In this document: one piece after another, positions 6,734 through 16,303 of the stretch
Layout: each line of letters opens with the position of its first letter
How positions within the stretch are numbered: position 1 is the stretch's first letter
NCBI GenBank assembly: GCA_937951625.1
Contig: CALFBP010000011.1
Span: forward strand, 91,247-155,246
Direction: 5' to 3'
Origin: an uncultured Thermoguttaceae bacterium
Lineage (GTDB): Bacteria; Planctomycetota; Planctomycetia; Pirellulales; Thermoguttaceae
DNA: 64,000 nucleotides
Notes under the pieces: generated by a model
Told to the model about the DNA's origin: nothing
Seen by the model: only the letters and a program-made list of their open reading frames with translations
Databases searched by the model: none
Program-made: the position numbers and the translations under genes

Positions 6734-9154
6734 TTATCTTGTCGCCACTGGTCCGGTGATCAGCTCCTTGGGGAACGCGAACTTCCCCTGCGTGCCGACT
6801 TCCGTGCCGAAAGGGAAGTTCTTGGTGTTGATCTTTGCAATGGCGACCATCGTCTCCGGGTCGCCGGCGACCACATGGATGTCCAATCCGGCGTGGCCGC
6901 GGAGCCATTCGGGGCCGATCAGGCGTTTACCGTTCCATACGCCGCCAGTGGCGATGAGCAGGCCGAAGCGGGCGAGGTCTTCGGCGCTGATTCGCATCCA
7001 GCCCGGGCCGCCGCGGATGACGCAGCCGTCGATCTCATAGGGTGGGTCGACGTATTCGCCGTAGCCCGGGAAATCGGGGTAGAAATCACGGGTGTCGTGG
7101 ACTTCCTTGCCGGGCAGCCACTCCCAGCGGTCGGCCGGGATGCCGAGGTGGCGGAAGAGTCGCTCGTCGAGCACTTCTTTGAGGTCCCTTTTCCATAAGA
7201 CGGTGAGGGCCTGGCTCAGCCGCCAGTAGCCGGCGCTGGAATAGCGAGTTGTGCCGCCGGGCGGGGTGTGGGCGAAGTTGTCGAATGATGGGTCGCCGGT
7301 CCAGGTCACGCCCGGCGGAATCACGGCGTGGAACCCCGTGCGGTTTCGCCAGTGGAACCCGCTTTCGAGCACGAATCCGCCTTGATGGTCGAGGAGTTGC
7401 CGCCAAGTGAGCTGACGGTGGAGTCCTTCATCAAGATACTTGTGCGGATGGGAAAGCTGGCCGCGGCCGGTCCAGGTCTTCCAGACCGGCTCGTCGGGCT
7501 TGAGCACGCCCGCCTCCACGCTCAGGCCGAACAGGGCCCGCATGATGCACTTGCCCAGCGAGGCCGACTGGCAGCGGTAGCTCGGATTGCCCCAACGGCG
7601 CACGAGGTATCCGCCCCGGGTGAGCACCGCGCCCCATTGACCGTCGGCGACCTTCACGCCGCCAAAGCCGCCGCCGTGGATATTCGCTTTGGCGATGAGT
7701 TCGTCGAGCTTCTTGGCGTCGAAGCCGGCTTGCTCGGGCGTGGTTTCGAGCCAACGCTCGCCGGGGAATACGACCGTAGGGCAAGCAAGGCTGCTTGCCC
7801 TACGTACTTCTCCCACGAGTTTCCGCACTTCGCCCATGACCACCTCGTCAACTTGTGGGGCGAACAGGCCGACGTCGAGCGTCAGGCACATCGACTCGTG
7901 GCCGCCTTCCTTGAGGATCTGCGCCGTGGGCAGATAGCCGAACGACTCGTTGCAGTACGCGGCGACCCATAGGCCTTGCGGCCCAAGGGCCTTGGCGATC
8001 CGTGTCGCGTAGTCCGCGACGGCTTCGCCGGACAGGCCCACCAGCGTCAGGTCCGAGCCGAACTGCCACACGGCCAGCGGGGCACGGTAGGACTTGGGCA
8101 GCGGCTTGCCCTGGGCGAGTATTTCGAGCATCCCTTTGGCGTTCCGGGCGTGCCACACCGACGGCCCGGCGGCCATGGCCTGCAATTGTTCGGGCGAGTA
8201 ATCATGGGCCAGCGGCAGGTCGATCCACGCCAACTCTGCACGGAGCGGCCCGCGCACGGGCTGCATCGGGCCGGTCGCCACGCGGGCGACCTCGGTGGCC
8301 AGTCGTTCGCCCTGCTCCCGGGCCATCTCCGCGGTTCCCCGGGGATGCGAGTTGGCGTCCGCCCCGCAACCGATGACAAACATCGCCAAAGCGTCGGGAA
8401 AACATTTCTCCAGCGCAGCTTGGGCAAAGCTGGCGTAGTCGCCCGAGATCTTGGTGTTGTTTCCGTCGAGCGTCACCGGGTGGCACGCGCAGCCGAACAC
8501 CAGCCCGCGGAGCCGGCCATCCGGCCCCTCAATGCGGAGCACCGGCACGTTGCGATCCACCGGACCTTGCGGGTTGGGAGCCATGACGATGCCGTTGGGG
8601 GTCGCCAGGCGGCGGTTCATGACGAAATCGGCCTGACCTACCCCGAAACTCAGCCTCGCCGGCTGCAAGTCGCGGAGGGCTGCGGCCACCAGGTCCGCAA
8701 GCTGCTCCTCCAACTTCGCGGTGTACGTCGCCACGCGCGGGCGTATGTCGGGCGGCACGCCGAAGGCATCCAGGTCGCGGTTCATCCCCACCACGGGCCC
8801 CGAGTGCGTGTGCGAGGCGTTCAACAGGATCTGGCGTCGCTGGAGCCCCGTCTTCTCCATGATCCGCCTGGCCACGGCTTCGCCCACATCGCGGCGGAAA
8901 AACAGGATGTCCGCGGTGACGAGTACGGCCCGATCCCCACCGGGCCACTGGACTGCCATCGCCTTGGCGTGCAACTCGTCGAGCACGCCATCGGAGATTC
9001 GCGGTCCGTACCCGCTCATGGGCATCGGCTCGTCGGGAGTGATCCCGACCCGGGCCAGCCCGACCCGCCAAGGGAACTCCTCGCCCAGAGCCGGACCGAG
9101 CCAAAAGCAGACGACAGGCAATGCCATCAACAGAAGTAAAGATACGCGCCTCAT
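6734..9154 (-). CDS. Fusion protein: N-terminal neutral/alkaline ceramidase-like domain and C-terminal beta-lactamase-like serine hydrolase
   Basis: Signal peptide MRRVSLLLLMALPVVCFWLGPALG; VLVTADILFFRR and NASHTHSGPVVG (ceramidase-like); C-terminal SASLGKCIMRALFGLSVEAGVL, YSSAGYWRLSQALT (S-x-x-K and YxxA of serine beta-lactamase fold). Confidence 0.85.
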   Translation of the reverse strand: MRRVSLLLLMALPVVCFWLGPALGEEFPWRVGLARVGITPDEPMPMSGYGPRISDGVLDELHAKAMAVQWPGGDRAVLVTADILFFRRDVGEAVARRIMEKTGLQRRQILLNASHTHSGPVVGMNRDLDAFGVPPDIRPRVATYTAKLEEQLADLVAAALRDLQPARLSFGVGQADFVMNRRLATPNGIVMAPNPQGPVDRNVPVLRIEGPDGRLRGLVFGCACHPVTLDGNNTKISGDYASFAQAALEKCFPDALAMFVIGCGADANSHPRGTAEMAREQGERLATEVARVATGPMQPVRGPLRAELAWIDLPLAHDYSPEQLQAMAAGPSVWHARNAKGMLEILAQGKPLPKSYRAPLAVWQFGSDLTLVGLSGEAVADYATRIAKALGPQGLWVAAYCNESFGYLPTAQILKEGGHESMCLTLDVGLFAPQVDEVVMGEVRKLVGEVRRASSLACPTVVFPGERWLETTPEQAGFDAKKLDELIAKANIHGGGFGGVKVADGQWGAVLTRGGYLVRRWGNPSYRCQSASLGKCIMRALFGLSVEAGVLKPDEPVWKTWTGRGQLSHPHKYLDEGLHRQLTWRQLLDHQGGFVLESGFHWRNRTGFHAVIPPGVTWTGDPSFDNFAHTPPGGTTRYSSAGYWRLSQALTVLWKRDLKEVLDERLFRHLGIPADRWEWLPGKEVHDTRDFYPDFPGYGEYVDPPYEIDGCVIRGGPGWMRISAEDLARFGLLIATGGVWNGKRLIGPEWLRGHAGLDIHVVAGDPETMVAIAKINTKNFPFGTEVGTQGKFAFPKELITGPVATR
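7775..7804. repeat. Perfect 13-bp-arm palindrome inside a CDS
   Basis: CGTAGGGCAAGCA-AGGC-TGCTTGCCCTACG. Confidence 0.9.
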
Positions 9155-9840
9155 GCCTCGCCAAGTGATAACGTGAATAGGAAATTTGATTCCACCCACG
9201 GCCCCGAGTCTACAATGGTGGAGTGCTGTGTCAAGTGGGCTGGAGGGGGAGTGCGGCCATGGCCGCCCTCCCGCCCTCGCCCCCTTCCGGGTACTTCGGG
9301 AAGCTTCGTAGCCGAGATTCCCGGCCCAGCGGCGTGCCAACCAGGGGTGGAGCAGGCGGAGAAGCTGCACCGTCCCCGGGGGCGACCCTCGATCGGGGAA
9401 CAAAAACGGGGGAAAACGGGACAGGTCCAATCCTTTTCGGCACCATTATTGCTCCGGGCGCTTCGGTGCGAAAGGTGTGGGGGGAGCGGCGCGGCGGCGT
9501 GCATGCGAGAATATGCGAGACCGGGACGAAGCGGCGTGATGAATGTCCCAGAGTGCGCAGCACGAAGCGCCTCAGTTTGCTGAGCAAACGAGCTGGCGTC
9601 AGCCGTCGGCGGCCTTCAGTTTTGCGAGGTGTGCGAGCAACTCCTCTTCACCCGGCCCCCAACCGATCCCCGTCACGTTCCTGAAGTGGTCGAAAAATCG
9701 GGAAATTTGGATTCTTTTGGGGAGTGGGGTGCGTCAAACGCGGGAAATTTTGAGGTGGCTGCGGGGAAACCGTTTTTCCGCTCCCACGGAACCCACCCCC
9801 TCCCAACGACTTCCGCACAACGCAACCGGCTCCCACACAG

Positions 9841-9875
<35 letters not shown>

Positions 9876-9909
9876 GTGGTGCGATGGATCGACCTGGCGA
9901 CGAGCTGCC

Positions 9910-10216
9910 TGACGCATCTGCTGCCGCCGGCGTCGAGCATCATGAACGCCAGCCGCCGATAGCCTTTCAAGGGGTACTGACGCTCGTAATCCAGGATCGC
10001 CCGCTTCTCCTCCGCGGTCAGCCAGTGGTCGCGGGGGATCGACGCGTTGTGCTCGTTTTGCTTGCCGTAACGCTTCCGCCAGTTGTAGAACTTCGAGAGG
10101 CTCATGCCCAGCTAGAGCAGCAGGGCGCAGATGGCGATCTCCGTCTTTTCAAACCAGCGGGCCACGAACTCCACCACCTGGTCCCGGATGTCGTGGGGAA
10201 CCCATTGCTCTTTCAT
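9910..10216 (-). pseudogene. IS3-family transposase OrfB, N-terminal remnant
   Basis: MKEQWVPHDIRDQVVEFVARWFEKTEIAICALLL*LGMSLSKFYNWRKRYGKQNEHNASIPRDHWLTAEEKRAILDYERQYPLKGYRRLAFMMLDA; in-frame TAG at 10112-10114, then homology lost. Confidence 0.75.
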
Positions 10217-10508
10217 TTTTTAGTAGCTGGACGTGCTCCTGCATCAGCTCGGCGAGCACCTCGTTCTTCTGGGCGAGCTTCGCTTCGAGCCTCTCGATTT
10301 TCTGGTAGCGGCGATCCGCCTGGCAGCCGCGTGGCTTCTGGAACGCGGCCGCCCCGTTCTCGAAGAGCTCCTTCTGCCAGCCGTAGAAGACGTTGGGATT
10401 GAGGCCCAACTCGTCGCCCAGATCGGAGACTGGCACCTTGTCTACCAGATGCCTCTTGAGAACGACCACCTTCTCCTCGGGAGTGTAGTTCTTTCGCTCT
10501 CGACTCAT
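10149..10508 (-). mobile_element. IS3-family transposase OrfA (HTH) of a degenerate insertion sequence
   Basis: MSRERKNYTPEEKVVVLKRHLVDKVPVSDLGDELGLNPNVFYGWQKELFENGAAAF plus leucine-zipper-like KIERLEAKLAQKNEVLAELMQEHVQL. Confidence 0.8.
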
Positions 10509-11039: not shown

Positions 11040-11462
11040 TTGAGGCTTGCCGAGATGTTCTTTGCTTATGTCAGATTTATTTCGAGAAGTGGCTTCGATT
11101 GGGCTATCTTAGCTTATGGCTTTGTGCTGTTATATTTTCACGCTGATGCATTGTGCCGCCGTCTGATTGGCAAGGACGTCAATTACTTTCAGAATTTGGA
11201 TCGGCACCGAACCGTTCTATTGTCTATGACCGAGCTCTTGCCCTTATTGGGCCTTCTTGGAACGGCTCTCAGTCTGTTGGCAACCTTCGACAATTTTCGC
11301 GTTGCAGCGGTAAACGAGGCTCCTGATCTCGCTCAGATGGTCCAAAGTTTTGCGCCAGCCTTAAGTACCACCATTTCCGGGCTGATAATGACTGTCCCGA
11401 ATCTTTTTTTGAACGCATGGCTTTGGTTGGTGTGTCCCGATAAGGAAGAAGGACTTGATTAG
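11040..11462 (+). CDS. Minimal MotA/TolQ/ExbB-like proton channel protein
   Basis: Three TM segments; ELLPLLGLLGTALSLLATF and APALSTTISGLIMTVPNLFLNAWLWLV match ExbB/TolQ TM2-TM3 patterns. Start is TTG 11040 or ATG 11055. Confidence 0.75.
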   Translation: MRLAEMFFAYVRFISRSGFDWAILAYGFVLLYFHADALCRRLIGKDVNYFQNLDRHRTVLLSMTELLPLLGLLGTALSLLATFDNFRVAAVNEAPDLAQMVQSFAPALSTTISGLIMTVPNLFLNAWLWLVCPDKEEGLD

Positions 11463-11464
11463 TC

Positions 11465-11911
11465 GTGAGAGCAAGCAGCGTTATTGTCCGATTTCTGTCC
11501 CTCTTGGACGTTGCTTTACTCCTTCTTGGTATCCTTATGGTCGTGCTTGCACATTCCCAGTTAAGGAGTGATGAAGCGAAGCAGGGTAGTGCTTCGCTGG
11601 ATCGAGCAGATTTAGCTGTGCCAGTCGATTTTATCTTTGTCTACGCTGGTTGGAGGGGAGAGCAAAACGGGAAGTGCTATCTACTGGGACGCAATGGAAA
11701 ACCGGGAAAGGAACTGCGGACCGATAGCGCAGCGGACATTCGGAATATATCAACAGGCCCGCACGGAAAGGAGCGCCGCAAAAAGGTCGTTATCCTCGTG
11801 TTCCCGGATGACGGCTGGTTCTCTGCATGGGATGAAAAAAAAATTAGTGCCATAAAAGAAGCGTGGGGCCTCGATTTGTTCCCTCTTTATAAGGTCCCAT
11901 TACCTCGGTAG
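11465..11911 (+). CDS. ExbD/TolR-like protein
   Basis: Single N-terminal TM with Asp (VRFLSLLDVALLLLGILMVVLAH), resembling the ExbD/TolR ion-pathway helix; GTG start two bases after the previous stop. Confidence 0.65.
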   Translation: MRASSVIVRFLSLLDVALLLLGILMVVLAHSQLRSDEAKQGSASLDRADLAVPVDFIFVYAGWRGEQNGKCYLLGRNGKPGKELRTDSAADIRNISTGPHGKERRKKVVILVFPDDGWFSAWDEKKISAIKEAWGLDLFPLYKVPLPR

Positions 11912-11930
11912 GTAGGAAAGATCCCCTCCG

Positions 11931-12644
11931 ATGCTAGGCAAACTGATATTGTCGACCAGCCTCGCCCTGTTGGCATGGAATTCGCTAAGTCCACCTTTCG
12001 ATTGGCGGTCTGCCATTGTCTGCGGTTTAGCCGCTGGGGTGGTTTCGGGCGTAATAATTTTTAGCTTCGTTGGTGTGAGTCTAGGGTCCATCGGTGCTGC
12101 CGCAATGATCGGCGTTTCTGCGGGCGTTGCTGCGGGCTTGTTTTTCGCAAAGCAAGGCGACGGGGCAAAAAAAGCAGCAACCTCTGACACCACAATGCGG
12201 GAACCCACACCAGATACGAAACCGGTTACGGCTGCACGAATCGCGCCTCAGCTCGATATTTATTTCGAGCCCTCGGCTTCGCCGAATCGTGCGGCTGAAT
12301 TCCGATGCACATTGGTAGTTTATGAAGCCAGGGCCGAGAGCTCGGAGCCTTGGAATTATAGTATCAAAAAGACAAGAATCGCCGAGAACAGTGGTGCGAG
12401 ATTCTACCAAAAATTGAGACAGGCCCTTCAGGAATGGTTAAAACGCGAGGCCGTGGGAGACGCCGAGAAACAGCCTCGGCGCGTGGTGGTGTACATGACT
12501 CCTTTTCCTGGCGACGGTGTTTACGAACGTATTCGAGAGTTGGCTGAGAACAATGAAATCCGCAAGTGCCTTGTGGTGAGGGACAGGGGCACGTGGACGC
12601 CGTTAGAATCCGTACGAGAAAGCGGCATACCCAGTGATGAGTAG
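11931..12644 (+). CDS. Membrane protein with C-terminal soluble domain, hypothetical (paralogue of next ORF)
   Basis: N-terminal TM segments then AAEFRCTLVVYEA...RRVVVYMTPFPGDGVYERIRELAENNEIRKCLVV. Confidence 0.7.
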   Translation: MLGKLILSTSLALLAWNSLSPPFDWRSAIVCGLAAGVVSGVIIFSFVGVSLGSIGAAAMIGVSAGVAAGLFFAKQGDGAKKAATSDTTMREPTPDTKPVTAARIAPQLDIYFEPSASPNRAAEFRCTLVVYEARAESSEPWNYSIKKTRIAENSGARFYQKLRQALQEWLKREAVGDAEKQPRRVVVYMTPFPGDGVYERIRELAENNEIRKCLVVRDRGTWTPLESVRESGIPSDE

Positions 12645-12656
12645 TGAAAGAAAGCT

Positions 12657-13292
12657 GTGATGACGTACCCGGTGTCGTTCTTAGAGTGGTGGCTCCTTGA
12701 ATGGTTGGTTGAATGGTCACGCTGGGCTCTGTTCGATCCGTGGATTGGCACGGTTGTTGGGGTCGTCGCTGCGATCGTCGCTGCTGTCGCGTCTAAAGCC
12801 AAACGGATTATGATGGTGCCGCTGGTTTTTTTGGTCGTTGCGTTTTTGCTTTCGTCGCTAACGCGGGCCGTCGCGCCTGGGCTGGGCGGAGATGGCGGAT
12901 CTCGAGACCACAGGGAAAAACCGGAACGTCAACAACAAGGCTCCACTAGCGCGGAAGAGATGAAAACAGTTCCTGTTCTTCCCGAGCATGCCGATCTTCT
13001 TGTCACCTTTCTGCCCTCGCCAGCAGATCCCTTGAAGGCCCTAGAATTCGCGTGTCTCCTGTCGTTCGATTTCGGTGGACGCCAGGAGCCCATTTCAATA
13101 AAGGCATCCGACATGGACGAGTTCGAGGCATTGTTAGTGAGGGGGCTCGGTAAGTTCAGAGCAGCCGCGGGCTCCAAGGAATGCACCGTAGTGGTGAAGC
13201 GGAGGCCCTATCCGGGGGAGAGTGTTTTACGTCGAATTGACGAAACGATTCGATCTGTACTCGTTAATGCGAATGTGAAAGTGCAAGAGTAG
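12657..13292 (+). CDS. Membrane protein with C-terminal soluble domain, hypothetical (paralogue of previous ORF)
   Basis: N-terminal TM segments then ALEFACLLSFDF...KECTVVVKRRPYPGESVLRRIDETIRSVLVNANVKV. Confidence 0.7.
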   Translation: MMTYPVSFLEWWLLEWLVEWSRWALFDPWIGTVVGVVAAIVAAVASKAKRIMMVPLVFLVVAFLLSSLTRAVAPGLGGDGGSRDHREKPERQQQGSTSAEEMKTVPVLPEHADLLVTFLPSPADPLKALEFACLLSFDFGGRQEPISIKASDMDEFEALLVRGLGKFRAAAGSKECTVVVKRRPYPGESVLRRIDETIRSVLVNANVKVQE

Positions 13293-13300
13293 GCATCGCC

Positions 13301-15274
13301 ATGTTCCATCGCGACGGATCCTCAACTGTCAATCCTCGCATCAACGTGGGCATTTACGGCTACACGAAGGCCGGCAAGACCCGTTTTCTTTATCAACTTC
13401 TCCGGCACTTAAAGGATCAGAACTGCATCGCTGACGCCTCGCCGGGCTTTTACAAATTTTTGGACGATGTCCAGCAGCAGATTCAAAAATTCCAAGGCTC
13501 CTCGCCAACCACAAAGAGGAGCGACGAAATAACGGCAAAAATCCAACTCGTCAACATGAAGCAGCCTTTGGAACTTTGTGTGCAAGATTTGTGTGGAGAG
13601 CGTCTTACGGAGGCTTTAGATAAGTGGGAATCTGACTCCCTGACGCCTGATGAAATCTTGCTCCCTCAGGTCAAAAACTGCAATGCTTTTCTATTCTTCT
13701 TTGACCCCAGCTATTCGGAGATGGCCCAAACCGCGGAAAAGCTGGAGGAACATCACCGCCTAGAATTGAACCGGGCGGAGAGATTCGTCAAAAAAGTGCT
13801 TGAAGTGCGGCAAAATCGTCACCTACCGATTTTGTTTGTGCTAACACACTTCGACATTTGGAGAGAGGACGCCAGCGTGGTCTCAAGGACGCAGCGGTGG
13901 ATCGATGAGCTTCACCGAAAATTAAAACGGCTCTATGACTCGGCGTTGTCTCGGCGTTATCCGAAAAGCCTTGCAGATCGGCGATTGATTTTTCATTCGA
14001 TTTCGTCTATCGGAAGAGAACCAGCAGATAACCGTCAACTAGAGAAGGTCATTTGCCAATTGAATGAGCTAGTCCTTGATTCGGAAAGGTATTTCAAAGA
14101 CATCATCCGTAAACCCTTCTCTAAGGCGGCACGAAACTTTGGTGCAATCGTGGCCGGATCTCTTGTTTGTCTCGCGATTGTGGCACTGATCTTCTTCTTT
14201 GTTAGGGAACGGATTCTGCCTTCCGAAGAGGCGGCCACCGAATCGAAACGGTTAAAAGAAATTCAGGCATTTTTGGAACGCCATCCCTCGGGGACGCGGC
14301 TCCCACGGATTGAGGAGGCCCGAAAACTGAATGCTCATCTTTCCTGGTTAATTGAGTTTCTAGACCGATCCAGAGGCGAGCCGCCCTCCCCGAAGGCGGA
14401 AAGCAACATCAGGACTGCGCAAAGCCTTCTGCAAAAGATGGTCAGCTTAATCGGAGACAAGGCTACCGGAACATCAGGCGCATCGACTGAGGAAAGGTTA
14501 TTGGTTCTAGAGGCGTATTTAAGCAATCTGCCTGATATAGATATAACAGGCACAGGGGTAGATCTTACGGCTGTCCAGAACACTTATTGGCGACTCCAGC
14601 GAGAGAGGATTCTTGGGCAGCTTACCGCCATTATCTTGCGACGTAATCAGGTTGGATCATCCAAAATTGAGCTTTTCGCCGAGCTGCTCCAAGGGCTGCG
14701 GACCATTGAGCATGAGGTAGACGACAGTAAAGTTAGCGGCTCACAAAGTCGTCAGCGACTTTTGGATGAAATAGCGGTCGCAGTGACTTTTTGCGAGGAC
14801 AGGCATCAAAGGGAGGGCTATCCGGCGAAGTTTCAGGTGGTATCTGCGACTCTGTCTTCCAACAGCACATTCTCTTGGGCCTGGATGTGTTTAACGCTCA
14901 AGTCCCCAGGACAAGAGGCTCTCGAGATAGCGTTGAAGCCAACTGGTGGCAGTGATGGCAAGGTTTCTCTTGAGCCATCCCGGGAAAGCTATAGCATCAT
15001 GCTAGGCCTCGGATCGCCTGTCACATTAAGTCTATCGGTGCATAATTCTCCCGCAAACCGTTGGGAAGAAGCTAGGAAATTCGATTTGACTAGCGACCCG
15101 GGGCCGCTGGCTGTTTTGGGTTTGCCGCTTCACGCTCCGAAAGAAACGGAATTCACGAAATTGTTGCAGTGGAGAGAAAACGGAATGGCGATAACGGTGC
15201 AATTTTCTGACCTTGCTCTAGTTCCTGATCTATTGTTGGATGCCATCATGAGAGACGGGGGGCCGACGTCGTGA
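13301..15274 (+). CDS. P-loop GTPase domain protein with central TM helix
   Basis: Walker A GYTKAGKT, DxxG-type VQDLCGE, G4-like VLTHFD, TM helix FGAIVAGSLVCLAIVALIFFFV, then a C-terminal region of unknown fold. Confidence 0.8.
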   Translation: MFHRDGSSTVNPRINVGIYGYTKAGKTRFLYQLLRHLKDQNCIADASPGFYKFLDDVQQQIQKFQGSSPTTKRSDEITAKIQLVNMKQPLELCVQDLCGERLTEALDKWESDSLTPDEILLPQVKNCNAFLFFFDPSYSEMAQTAEKLEEHHRLELNRAERFVKKVLEVRQNRHLPILFVLTHFDIWREDASVVSRTQRWIDELHRKLKRLYDSALSRRYPKSLADRRLIFHSISSIGREPADNRQLEKVICQLNELVLDSERYFKDIIRKPFSKAARNFGAIVAGSLVCLAIVALIFFFVRERILPSEEAATESKRLKEIQAFLERHPSGTRLPRIEEARKLNAHLSWLIEFLDRSRGEPPSPKAESNIRTAQSLLQKMVSLIGDKATGTSGASTEERLLVLEAYLSNLPDIDITGTGVDLTAVQNTYWRLQRERILGQLTAIILRRNQVGSSKIELFAELLQGLRTIEHEVDDSKVSGSQSRQRLLDEIAVAVTFCEDRHQREGYPAKFQVVSATLSSNSTFSWAWMCLTLKSPGQEALEIALKPTGGSDGKVSLEPSRESYSIMLGLGSPVTLSLSVHNSPANRWEEARKFDLTSDPGPLAVLGLPLHAPKETEFTKLLQWRENGMAITVQFSDLALVPDLLLDAIMRDGGPTS

Positions 15275-16050
15275 CCATCAAGCAGGCGCCAATTGTTTCG
15301 CCATGTGCTTGGTTTGAGGTGAGGCGGGTTCCTGGTAAGGGTTATCAGGTAACGTCTGCCAATGGTGCTGGTGCAGAGGAGCGGAAAGCCGACGCGCTCG
15401 CCGTGCTCGAGCTTCTAACCCAACCAAATCCTTTTGGCCCTCAGGAATATCAGCGGTGGATTGGGCCGATTCCGGGGTCAGAAGAGAATGTGGCCGTAAC
15501 CGTGAGATTGTTGCCAGAAGGAGACGCTCTGTATCACCAGGCTTGGTTTCCGCCTGCCAGGGCGGTAGCAGGGGTTAGTTGTTTCCTTCCGCGATTTAGG
15601 GTGCTTTTTCTATTGCTTTCCATTGCGTTTATTGTGGGGCTGCTTGCTAGTCCAACGCTCGTTGCTTTTATTCTTCAGCGACCGGCTACTGACTCGGCGG
15701 TAACTACGGCCCCCTTGAGCAGTCAACAGGTTACTCTGTCCGAAGAGGAACTCGCCTTCAGGCAGGCCTTGAAACAACTCGAGACAGAACTGTCGTCAAC
15801 ACGTGAAGAACGGGCCAAGCTTCACAAGTATCTGTCTCAGGAGGGGTTTGCTGCGGACGTTTCAAGTGACGTGCTCAATGAGAAGAGGTCCGTAAAAATC
15901 ATCGCCGATTTGGATAAAAACCCTCCACCTCAGGAAAGTATGCTCCTCAGCAATATCGCGGTTGGTAGATTACTCAAGCTATTGGAAGCACTAAAAGCTT
16001 TTGAGGGACAGTCAGGGAAGTCATTTTTGTCAAAAGAAACAGCCCATTGA
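15271..16050 (+). CDS. Hypothetical single-TM protein with coiled-coil segment
   Basis: GTG start overlaps the GTPase stop (GTGA); TM VLFLLLSIAFIVGLLASPTLVAFIL; coiled-coil-like FRQALKQLETELSSTREERAKLHKYL. Confidence 0.7.
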   Translation: MTIKQAPIVSPCAWFEVRRVPGKGYQVTSANGAGAEERKADALAVLELLTQPNPFGPQEYQRWIGPIPGSEENVAVTVRLLPEGDALYHQAWFPPARAVAGVSCFLPRFRVLFLLLSIAFIVGLLASPTLVAFILQRPATDSAVTTAPLSSQQVTLSEEELAFRQALKQLETELSSTREERAKLHKYLSQEGFAADVSSDVLNEKRSVKIIADLDKNPPPQESMLLSNIAVGRLLKLLEALKAFEGQSGKSFLSKETAH

Positions 16051-16090
16051 CACGCTTGTTCATCATTTGCTTGCTAGGAGGTAAAGTTCT

Positions 16091-16303
16091 ATGTCCACGC
16101 TGCGCTGCTGTTTCCTGTTACTGCTATTGCTTCCTATAACTGCCTGTGGGAAGCAGCAAAGTTCCTCACCTGGTTCACCCCCTTCCGCACCCTCACCTTC
16201 ACCAACGAGGCCCAATCAAGGCAATCCGCTGCCGCCTCCGCCTACGCCTTCCACAGAGCTTCCAACGAAGCCGCTCGGCCCGAGTGGTAAGCCGATGCAG
16301 TGA
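16091..16303 (+). CDS. Small proline-rich lipoprotein
   Basis: Signal peptide with lipobox LPITAC followed by a Pro/Ser-rich tail; preceded by gctaggaggtaaa. Confidence 0.7.
   Translation: MSTLRCCFLLLLLLPITACGKQQSSSPGSPPSAPSPSPTRPNQGNPLPPPPTPSTELPTKPLGPSGKPMQ

Follow-up and report, generated by a model that had tools for sequence, protein, structure and literature searches.

An apparently undescribed ExbB/ExbD-like operon with a membrane-spanning DO-family GTPase in an uncultured Thermoguttaceae bacterium

Nutrient uptake, cell division, motility and phage defence all draw on motors of the ExbB/ExbD type, and recent work holds that further machines of this kind await discovery (PMC12204202). 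The same work, which does not mention GTPases, describes vWA-domain force transducers of the PVC group that are encoded beside tolQ/tolR-like genes (section 8). The AglRQS motor of Myxococcus, to which the Ras homologue MglA binds directly as a probable activator (PMC9120999), is the nearest functional precedent for GTPase action on a motor of this class. Here we analyse an operon of seven plus-strand open reading frames (ORFs) at positions 11055-16303 of a 64,000-nucleotide stretch of DNA (the window) from an uncultured Thermoguttaceae bacterium. It encodes, in this order, an ExbB-like and an ExbD-like motor subunit, two transmembrane (TM) proteins termed orf3 and orf4, a GTPase, a coiled-coil protein (coil protein) and a lipoprotein. 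The gene combination is apparently undescribed: as an earlier note on this DNA had supposed, the operon was assigned to no named system, and a literature search, mostly outside subscription journals, found no paper joining ExbB-type motors with DO-GTPases. The nearest published idea is that of the vWA transducers, which differ in the transducer itself. With a probability of roughly 0.6, we consider the operon to encode an envelope motor of the 5:2 (ExbB/ExbD) class, driven by the proton-motive force and fitted with a GTPase-bearing transducer, that acts on the cell's own envelope or surface.

The motor pair and the putative GTPase-transducer

The window ExbB matches Pfam MotA_ExbB at 5.8e-11, and its profile matches ExbB in the PDB at 6e-6. 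It carries the channel threonines expected of the A subunit of a 5:2 motor of the MotA_ExbB family, as T70 and T106 correspond to E. coli ExbB T148 and T181 and are conserved in all 18 rows of the same ExbB type. In the same 18 rows, the position of E. coli Glu176 is occupied by Pro (Pro101 in the window), and a new invariant Glu is found in TM2 (window E60, E. coli position 138; 18/18 rows versus 0/5 canonical sequences). Against the NCBIfam ExbB/TolQ equivalogs, the window protein scores 23 bits at cut-offs of 135-221. Because all 18 rows were gathered with a profile of that same group, and because the beta-helix-linked rows described below fall on the canonical side of a branch of the ExbB tree (96/96), 'type' denotes a shared ExbB signature and not a proven clade. 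In this tree, the solo ExbBs of genus g384 cluster with the window ExbB and its homologue at locus L051 (82/97). With its new TM2 Glu and lost Glu176 position, the signature offers a natural experiment in channel-residue requirements.

Membership of the second protein (11465..11911) in the ExbD family is supported, at the level of sequence comparison, through its relatives. Asp15, the TM aspartate expected of the B subunit of a 5:2 motor, is invariant in the 13 rows of the alignment; PF02472 (ExbD) is matched by 7 of the 13 aligned relatives (best 1.9e-06), and in an hhalign comparison the profile and canonical ExbD align along the TM helix (E 9e-4), their aspartates falling at the same position. 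The best PDB profile matches are MotB-type subunits (E 0.06-0.08). The conserved threonines and this aspartate bear out the residue side of the proton-motive-force drive claimed by the earlier note; the proton flow itself we infer.

The fifth protein matches Pfam DO-GTPase1 at 1e-07, with a DO-GTPase2 match just under the cut-off, and its PF19975 score is 32 bits against a cut-off of 27. Its motifs are GYTKAGKT, DLCGE and LTHFD, of which DLCGE provides the glutamate after the Walker B DxxG that characterizes DO-GTPases among TRAFAC G domains. An AlphaFold2 model built from 8 sequences (predicted local distance difference test (pLDDT) 79.7, predicted template modelling score (pTM) 0.50) comprises a G domain, a 61-residue helix (241-301) that includes the TM segment, a helical region and, at the C terminus, a beta-sandwich, with a single helix connecting the G domain to the periplasmic part. 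Foldseek ranks EF-Tu at the top for this model and Ras lower down. The motor-plus-GTPase pairing seen in the earlier note is supported. Its term 'GTPase-gated' holds in so far as one polypeptide carries both a cytosolic G domain and, across a TM helix, a periplasmic part; gating is what this layout would permit. The C2-containing proteins PTEN and CC2D1B appear in the Foldseek list, but profile comparison with a C2-bearing DO-GTPase was negative, and for this reason we call the tip just a beta-sandwich. Elsewhere, the DO-GTPase encoded at L034 (4620-7946, minus strand; L, G, g and f mark our loci, genomes, genera and families) is 1108 aa long, has a TM helix and ends in a C2 domain; the window ExbB has no relative near this gene.

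The part of the GTPase-transducer beyond the membrane is exchangeable. The C-terminal end of the L110 GTPase is an FGE-sulfatase-like domain (2.3e-25), and at L111 the GTPase slot holds a 455-aa protein without GTPase motifs. Genus g387 has in this slot a single-TM protein of about 365-394 aa that lacks a G domain; the one of L109 matches the GTPase profile (5e-07), and the other g387 proteins align with it over the C-terminal region. In the distant relatives L122-L126, the slot is filled by a TM-anchored beta-helix protein. The simplest reading, by analogy with TonB and TolA, would be that the slot is the force-transducer position and the G domain a control module.

Distribution of the gene set

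Planctomycetota were searched in depth and other phyla through strict alignment-derived pattern scans; two such scans of GTDB r220 confirmed no relative. The GTPase is present in one copy in the window genome. A single-sequence search of the phylum sample with it drew no relative from the other 296 genomes, and neither single-protein searches of IMG/VR and plasmids with the GTPase nor a plasmid search with ExbB returned any. Among 348 class genomes, the GTPase search yielded one strong match in G302 (37%, nearly full length), pieces in G442 and a marginal match in G372. The G302 locus (L051), from another family, carries the full set in the same order as the window, with identities of 54% (ExbB), 39% (ExbD), 42% (orf3), 35% (orf4), 36% (GTPase) and 31-32% (coil protein), and a short lipoprotein-like ORF (12620-12763) comes after the coil gene. 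Since six proteins have syntenic homologues at L051, with the lipoprotein-like ORF after them, conservation of the operon is far beyond chance. The G442 locus (L052) retains just the coil protein and GTPase pieces in two frames, apparently a decayed copy of the set.

A profile of the two GTPases revealed seven further genomes within the window's family, four of them with ExbB-ExbD-TM-GTPase operons (L064, L067, L068 and L069). A fifth (L070) has the GTPase with a GAP1-like neighbour, as do the DO-GTPase loci L032 and L033 (by sequence reading), and the other two are L065 and L066, where the GTPase stands apart from any motor gene. DO-GTPase Pfam matches across the phylum were also considered and rejected as further copies; apart from the GTPase, their neighbourhoods contain neither a window-ExbB relative nor other operon relatives. 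The ExbB profile found matches in 16 of 120 family genomes and 6 of 40 genera, adding L104 and L110 to the loci with the ExbB-ExbD-TM-GTPase core. L105-L109, from genus g387, have the motor without a GTPase domain (the L107 contig stops before the last gene); L111 and the loci L101-L103, with a lone ExbB, complete the matches of this profile. By the tests run, the set is conserved in order, could be assigned to no named system and shows ExbB/ExbD similarity, the three points on which the earlier note had made its proposal depend.

The phylum sample contains five additional, more distant ExbBs (L122-L126; families f29 and f57), each heading a four-gene set in the order ExbB, ExbD, small TM protein and TM-anchored right-handed beta-helix (NosD-like) protein. 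This set is apparently separate and undescribed. Two of its five genomes (G073 and G091) carry DO-GTPases on other contigs, versus 16 of 249 phylum genomes, possibly by chance. Within the window operon, orf3 and orf4 are paralogues (cross-matches at 1e-4 to 1.8e-9); no homology was detected between either of them and ExbD, or between either of them and the small TM protein encoded at the beta-helix loci.

Two features recur beside the motor genes. A MoxR-type AAA ATPase lies directly 5' of ExbB at L067 (11466-12560, minus strand; MoxR by Pfam) and L068 (1496-2206). The cluster or its remnant adjoins cysS and ruvC/ruvA/ruvB, by sequence reading, at L052 (5076-8820), L105 (3440-6981), L108 (7560-10939) and L109, an adjacency in genomes of two families that may reflect an old shared location.

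Operon layout, proposed function and rival readings

Table 1. Genes of the operon and the basis of their assignment (window coordinates)
Feature	Coordinates	Strand	Basis
ExbB/TolQ-like motor subunit, minimal 3-TM form, 135 aa	11055..11462	+	Pfam MotA_ExbB; L051 homologue
ExbD/TolR-like subunit (supported through relatives), TM helix with invariant Asp15, 148 aa	11465..11911	+	Pfam ExbD matches of relatives; hhalign
orf3, TM protein, two TM helices and soluble C-terminal domain, 237 aa	11931..12644	+	L051 homologue; orf4 paralogue
orf4, TM protein, orf3 paralogue, 211 aa	12657..13292	+	L051 homologue; cross-matches with orf3
GTPase-transducer (putative): DO-family G domain, one TM helix, helical region, beta-sandwich, 657 aa	13301..15274	+	Pfam, motifs, AlphaFold2, Foldseek
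Coil protein: N-terminal cytosolic domain, TM helix, coiled-coil region, 259 aa	15271..16050	+	Homologues in L051, L052, L064, L069 and L104
Short proline-rich lipoprotein, lipobox ITAC, 70 aa	16091..16303	+	Sequence; lipoprotein-like ORF at same place in L051

Inspection of window 10.5-16.7 kb found the seven same-strand ORFs and their tight junctions as first described (Table 1): a gap of 2 nt separates the ExbB stop (11460-11462) from the GTG start of the ExbD-like gene, and in GTGA at 15271-15274 the GTPase stop overlaps the start of the next gene. The minimal three-TM ExbB of the earlier note likewise stands, through Pfam and the homologues of ExbB, from which the three-TM reading comes; its start at TTG 11040 is corrected to ATG 11055, since the L051 homologue begins MWEAYW, which aligns with MFFAYV. 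By hydropathy, the ExbD-like protein, the GTPase and the coil protein have one TM helix each, and orf3 and orf4 two each. A promoter and terminator scan gave no signals above chance.

The G+C content of the operon is 51.5% versus 61.5-62.5% in its flanks. Directly upstream, at window 9734-10508 (minus strand), transposase ORFs occur in truncated form (HTH_Tnp_1; IS3-like as read from the sequence), which may indicate that the low-G+C operon arrived horizontally. The remaining flanking genes tested are metabolic or housekeeping; one ORF at window 6734-9430 (minus strand) fuses neutral ceramidase-like and beta-lactamase-like serine hydrolase domains. In genus g387, a gene for a surface-type protein of ~950 aa precedes the motor cluster at a distance of about 110-130 bp; the two such proteins scanned match YDG and, more weakly, PMP-repeat, dockerin and Planc_extracel. 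This neighbour and the beta-helix transducers suggest work on surface or envelope material.

The envelope motor that we favour would operate as follows. A minimal ExbB pentamer would turn round a dimer of the ExbD-like protein as protons pass the ExbD aspartate, and this motion would be transmitted to a transducer crossing the inner membrane, whose helical stalk and globular tip would extend into the periplasm. At the cytosolic end of the transducer, the DO-family GTPase domain would switch or time the motor. The proteins orf3, orf4 and the coil protein may be accessory subunits, and the lipoprotein an outer-membrane or cell-wall partner. Such a machine would most likely pull, anchor or load surface material on the cell's own envelope, rather than serve in phage defence.

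Several observations weigh against this model. The window ExbD-like protein itself has no Pfam match, including to PF02472, and Foldseek of its periplasmic part places ExbD (8vgc) only at rank 27, a non-significant match (E 0.67, TMt 0.52). Sequence inspection of the GTPase and coil-protein TM helices revealed no SHLS motif with histidine of the TonB/TolA kind, so that contact of the transducer with the motor is putative. The GTPase has no motor neighbours at L065 and L066, ExbB stands alone at L101-L103, and in genome G773 the two occupy separate loci (L102 for ExbB, L066 for the GTPase).

One rival reading is an antiphage or conflict function, in which the GTPase would sense infection and trigger the ExbB/ExbD-like channel, causing depolarisation or a signal in the manner of Zorya or DO-GTPase conflict systems. 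Planctomycetes and other bacteria have GAP1 conflict systems with DO-GTPases (PMC7159879). FGE-like domains such as the one fused to the L110 GTPase serve as effectors in GAP1 conflict systems; the patchy distribution of the set, the low G+C content with an adjacent transposase fragment, and a type III CRISPR locus ~4 kb from the L051 operon, on the opposite strand, would also fit. We nevertheless regard this function as unlikely. The operon has no GAP1 or effector gene, and PADLOC gave no convincing match to it, returning a weak ZorA match to ExbB (0.026) and a generic P-loop match to the GTPase (1.4e-4). The window flanks are metabolic, the motor occurs in at least 7 genomes of genus g387, partly without the GTPase, and L051 is the sole case with a CRISPR neighbour among the relatives examined. 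Of the 'envelope or defence machine' originally proposed, the defence half finds no support in the evidence of this analysis.

An envelope-stress sensor, with the ExbB/ExbD-like pair and periplasmic domains sensing proton-motive force or damage and signalling inward via the GTPase, appears quite improbable. A DO-GTPase has been reported next to phage-shock-protein operons (PMC11237479), the stress GTPase YcjX is among the best, non-significant PDB matches of the GTPase profile (E 0.02), and a lipoprotein and periplasmic domains suit sensing. Against it, the G-domain-less variants retain motor and transducer, which inward signalling leaves unexplained, and the operon contains no transcription factor. 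Very improbable is a third rival, in which the operon would be left over or derived from a type VI secretion membrane complex and the GTPase would be TssM/IcmF in reduced form: the order of GTPase-like domain, TM helix, helical domain and C2-like beta-sandwich is the same and the operon has a lipoprotein, as type VI secretion has in TssJ, but only this layout is in common, with profile comparisons to a planctomycete TssM negative, an IcmF Pfam match in 0/8 members and no IcmF_C match in the window's own genome.

A broader version of the envelope motor is tentative and, in our judgement, falls short of even odds: the operon may represent a motor family whose force transducer is a membrane-spanning GTPase with exchangeable periplasmic tips, the GTP state of which switches envelope work. 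If true, G-protein switching and proton-motive-force mechanics would be coupled in one polypeptide. The set links motor and GTPase in a single membrane protein, in a modular layout with swappable tips. It offers a concrete and testable case for control by GTP of an envelope motor driven by protons, in a phylum whose envelope is unusual and of whose envelope machines few have been characterised.

Comparison with known systems

By the tests run, the set is not Ton, Tol, Zorya, GAP1 or type VI secretion. Compared with TssM/IcmF, whose domain order it shares, the GTPase has no detectable sequence relationship and no IcmF domains (Pfam, profile comparisons), and ExbB/ExbD partners stand in place of TssL. 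Zorya (ZorAB) likewise has a MotA/ExbB-class motor in a multigene locus, whereas the window ExbB resembles ZorA only at E 0.026 and lacks the long ZorA tail; PADLOC found no other Zorya protein in the operon, which has no ZorC, ZorD or ZorE. The DO-GTPase/GAP1 systems, in a description that does not mention ExbB (PMC7159879), have in common with it the GTPase family, a membrane link and their presence in planctomycetes. Unlike them, the window operon has no GAP1, FNIII, GASH or known effector gene, and Pfam finds no GAP1 match in its six larger proteins or in the flanks scanned.

ExbBD-TonB and TolQRA are closer in organization, in that the gene for a MotA_ExbB-family subunit precedes one for an ExbD-like subunit bearing the TM aspartate, and the operon also includes a TM-anchored periplasmic protein. 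In contrast to these, the window ExbB is minimal, has no large cytoplasmic loop, has exchanged Glu176 for Pro and has acquired the TM2 Glu; the operon adds a GTPase-bearing transducer and two paired TM proteins, and none of its proteins matches the TonB/TolA family (Pfam, NCBIfam). The PVC transducers (PMC12204202) have a vWA tip, a TPR gene and the SHLS motif, whereas the window set, which has no vWA match, combines a GTPase domain with beta-sandwich, FGE-like or beta-helix tips among its relatives. AglRQS-MglA, finally, resembles the proposed machine as a 5:2-type proton motor acted on by a GTPase. There, MglA is a separate, soluble Ras-like protein; in the window, the G domain belongs to the DO-GTPase family and is fused to a membrane-spanning protein.

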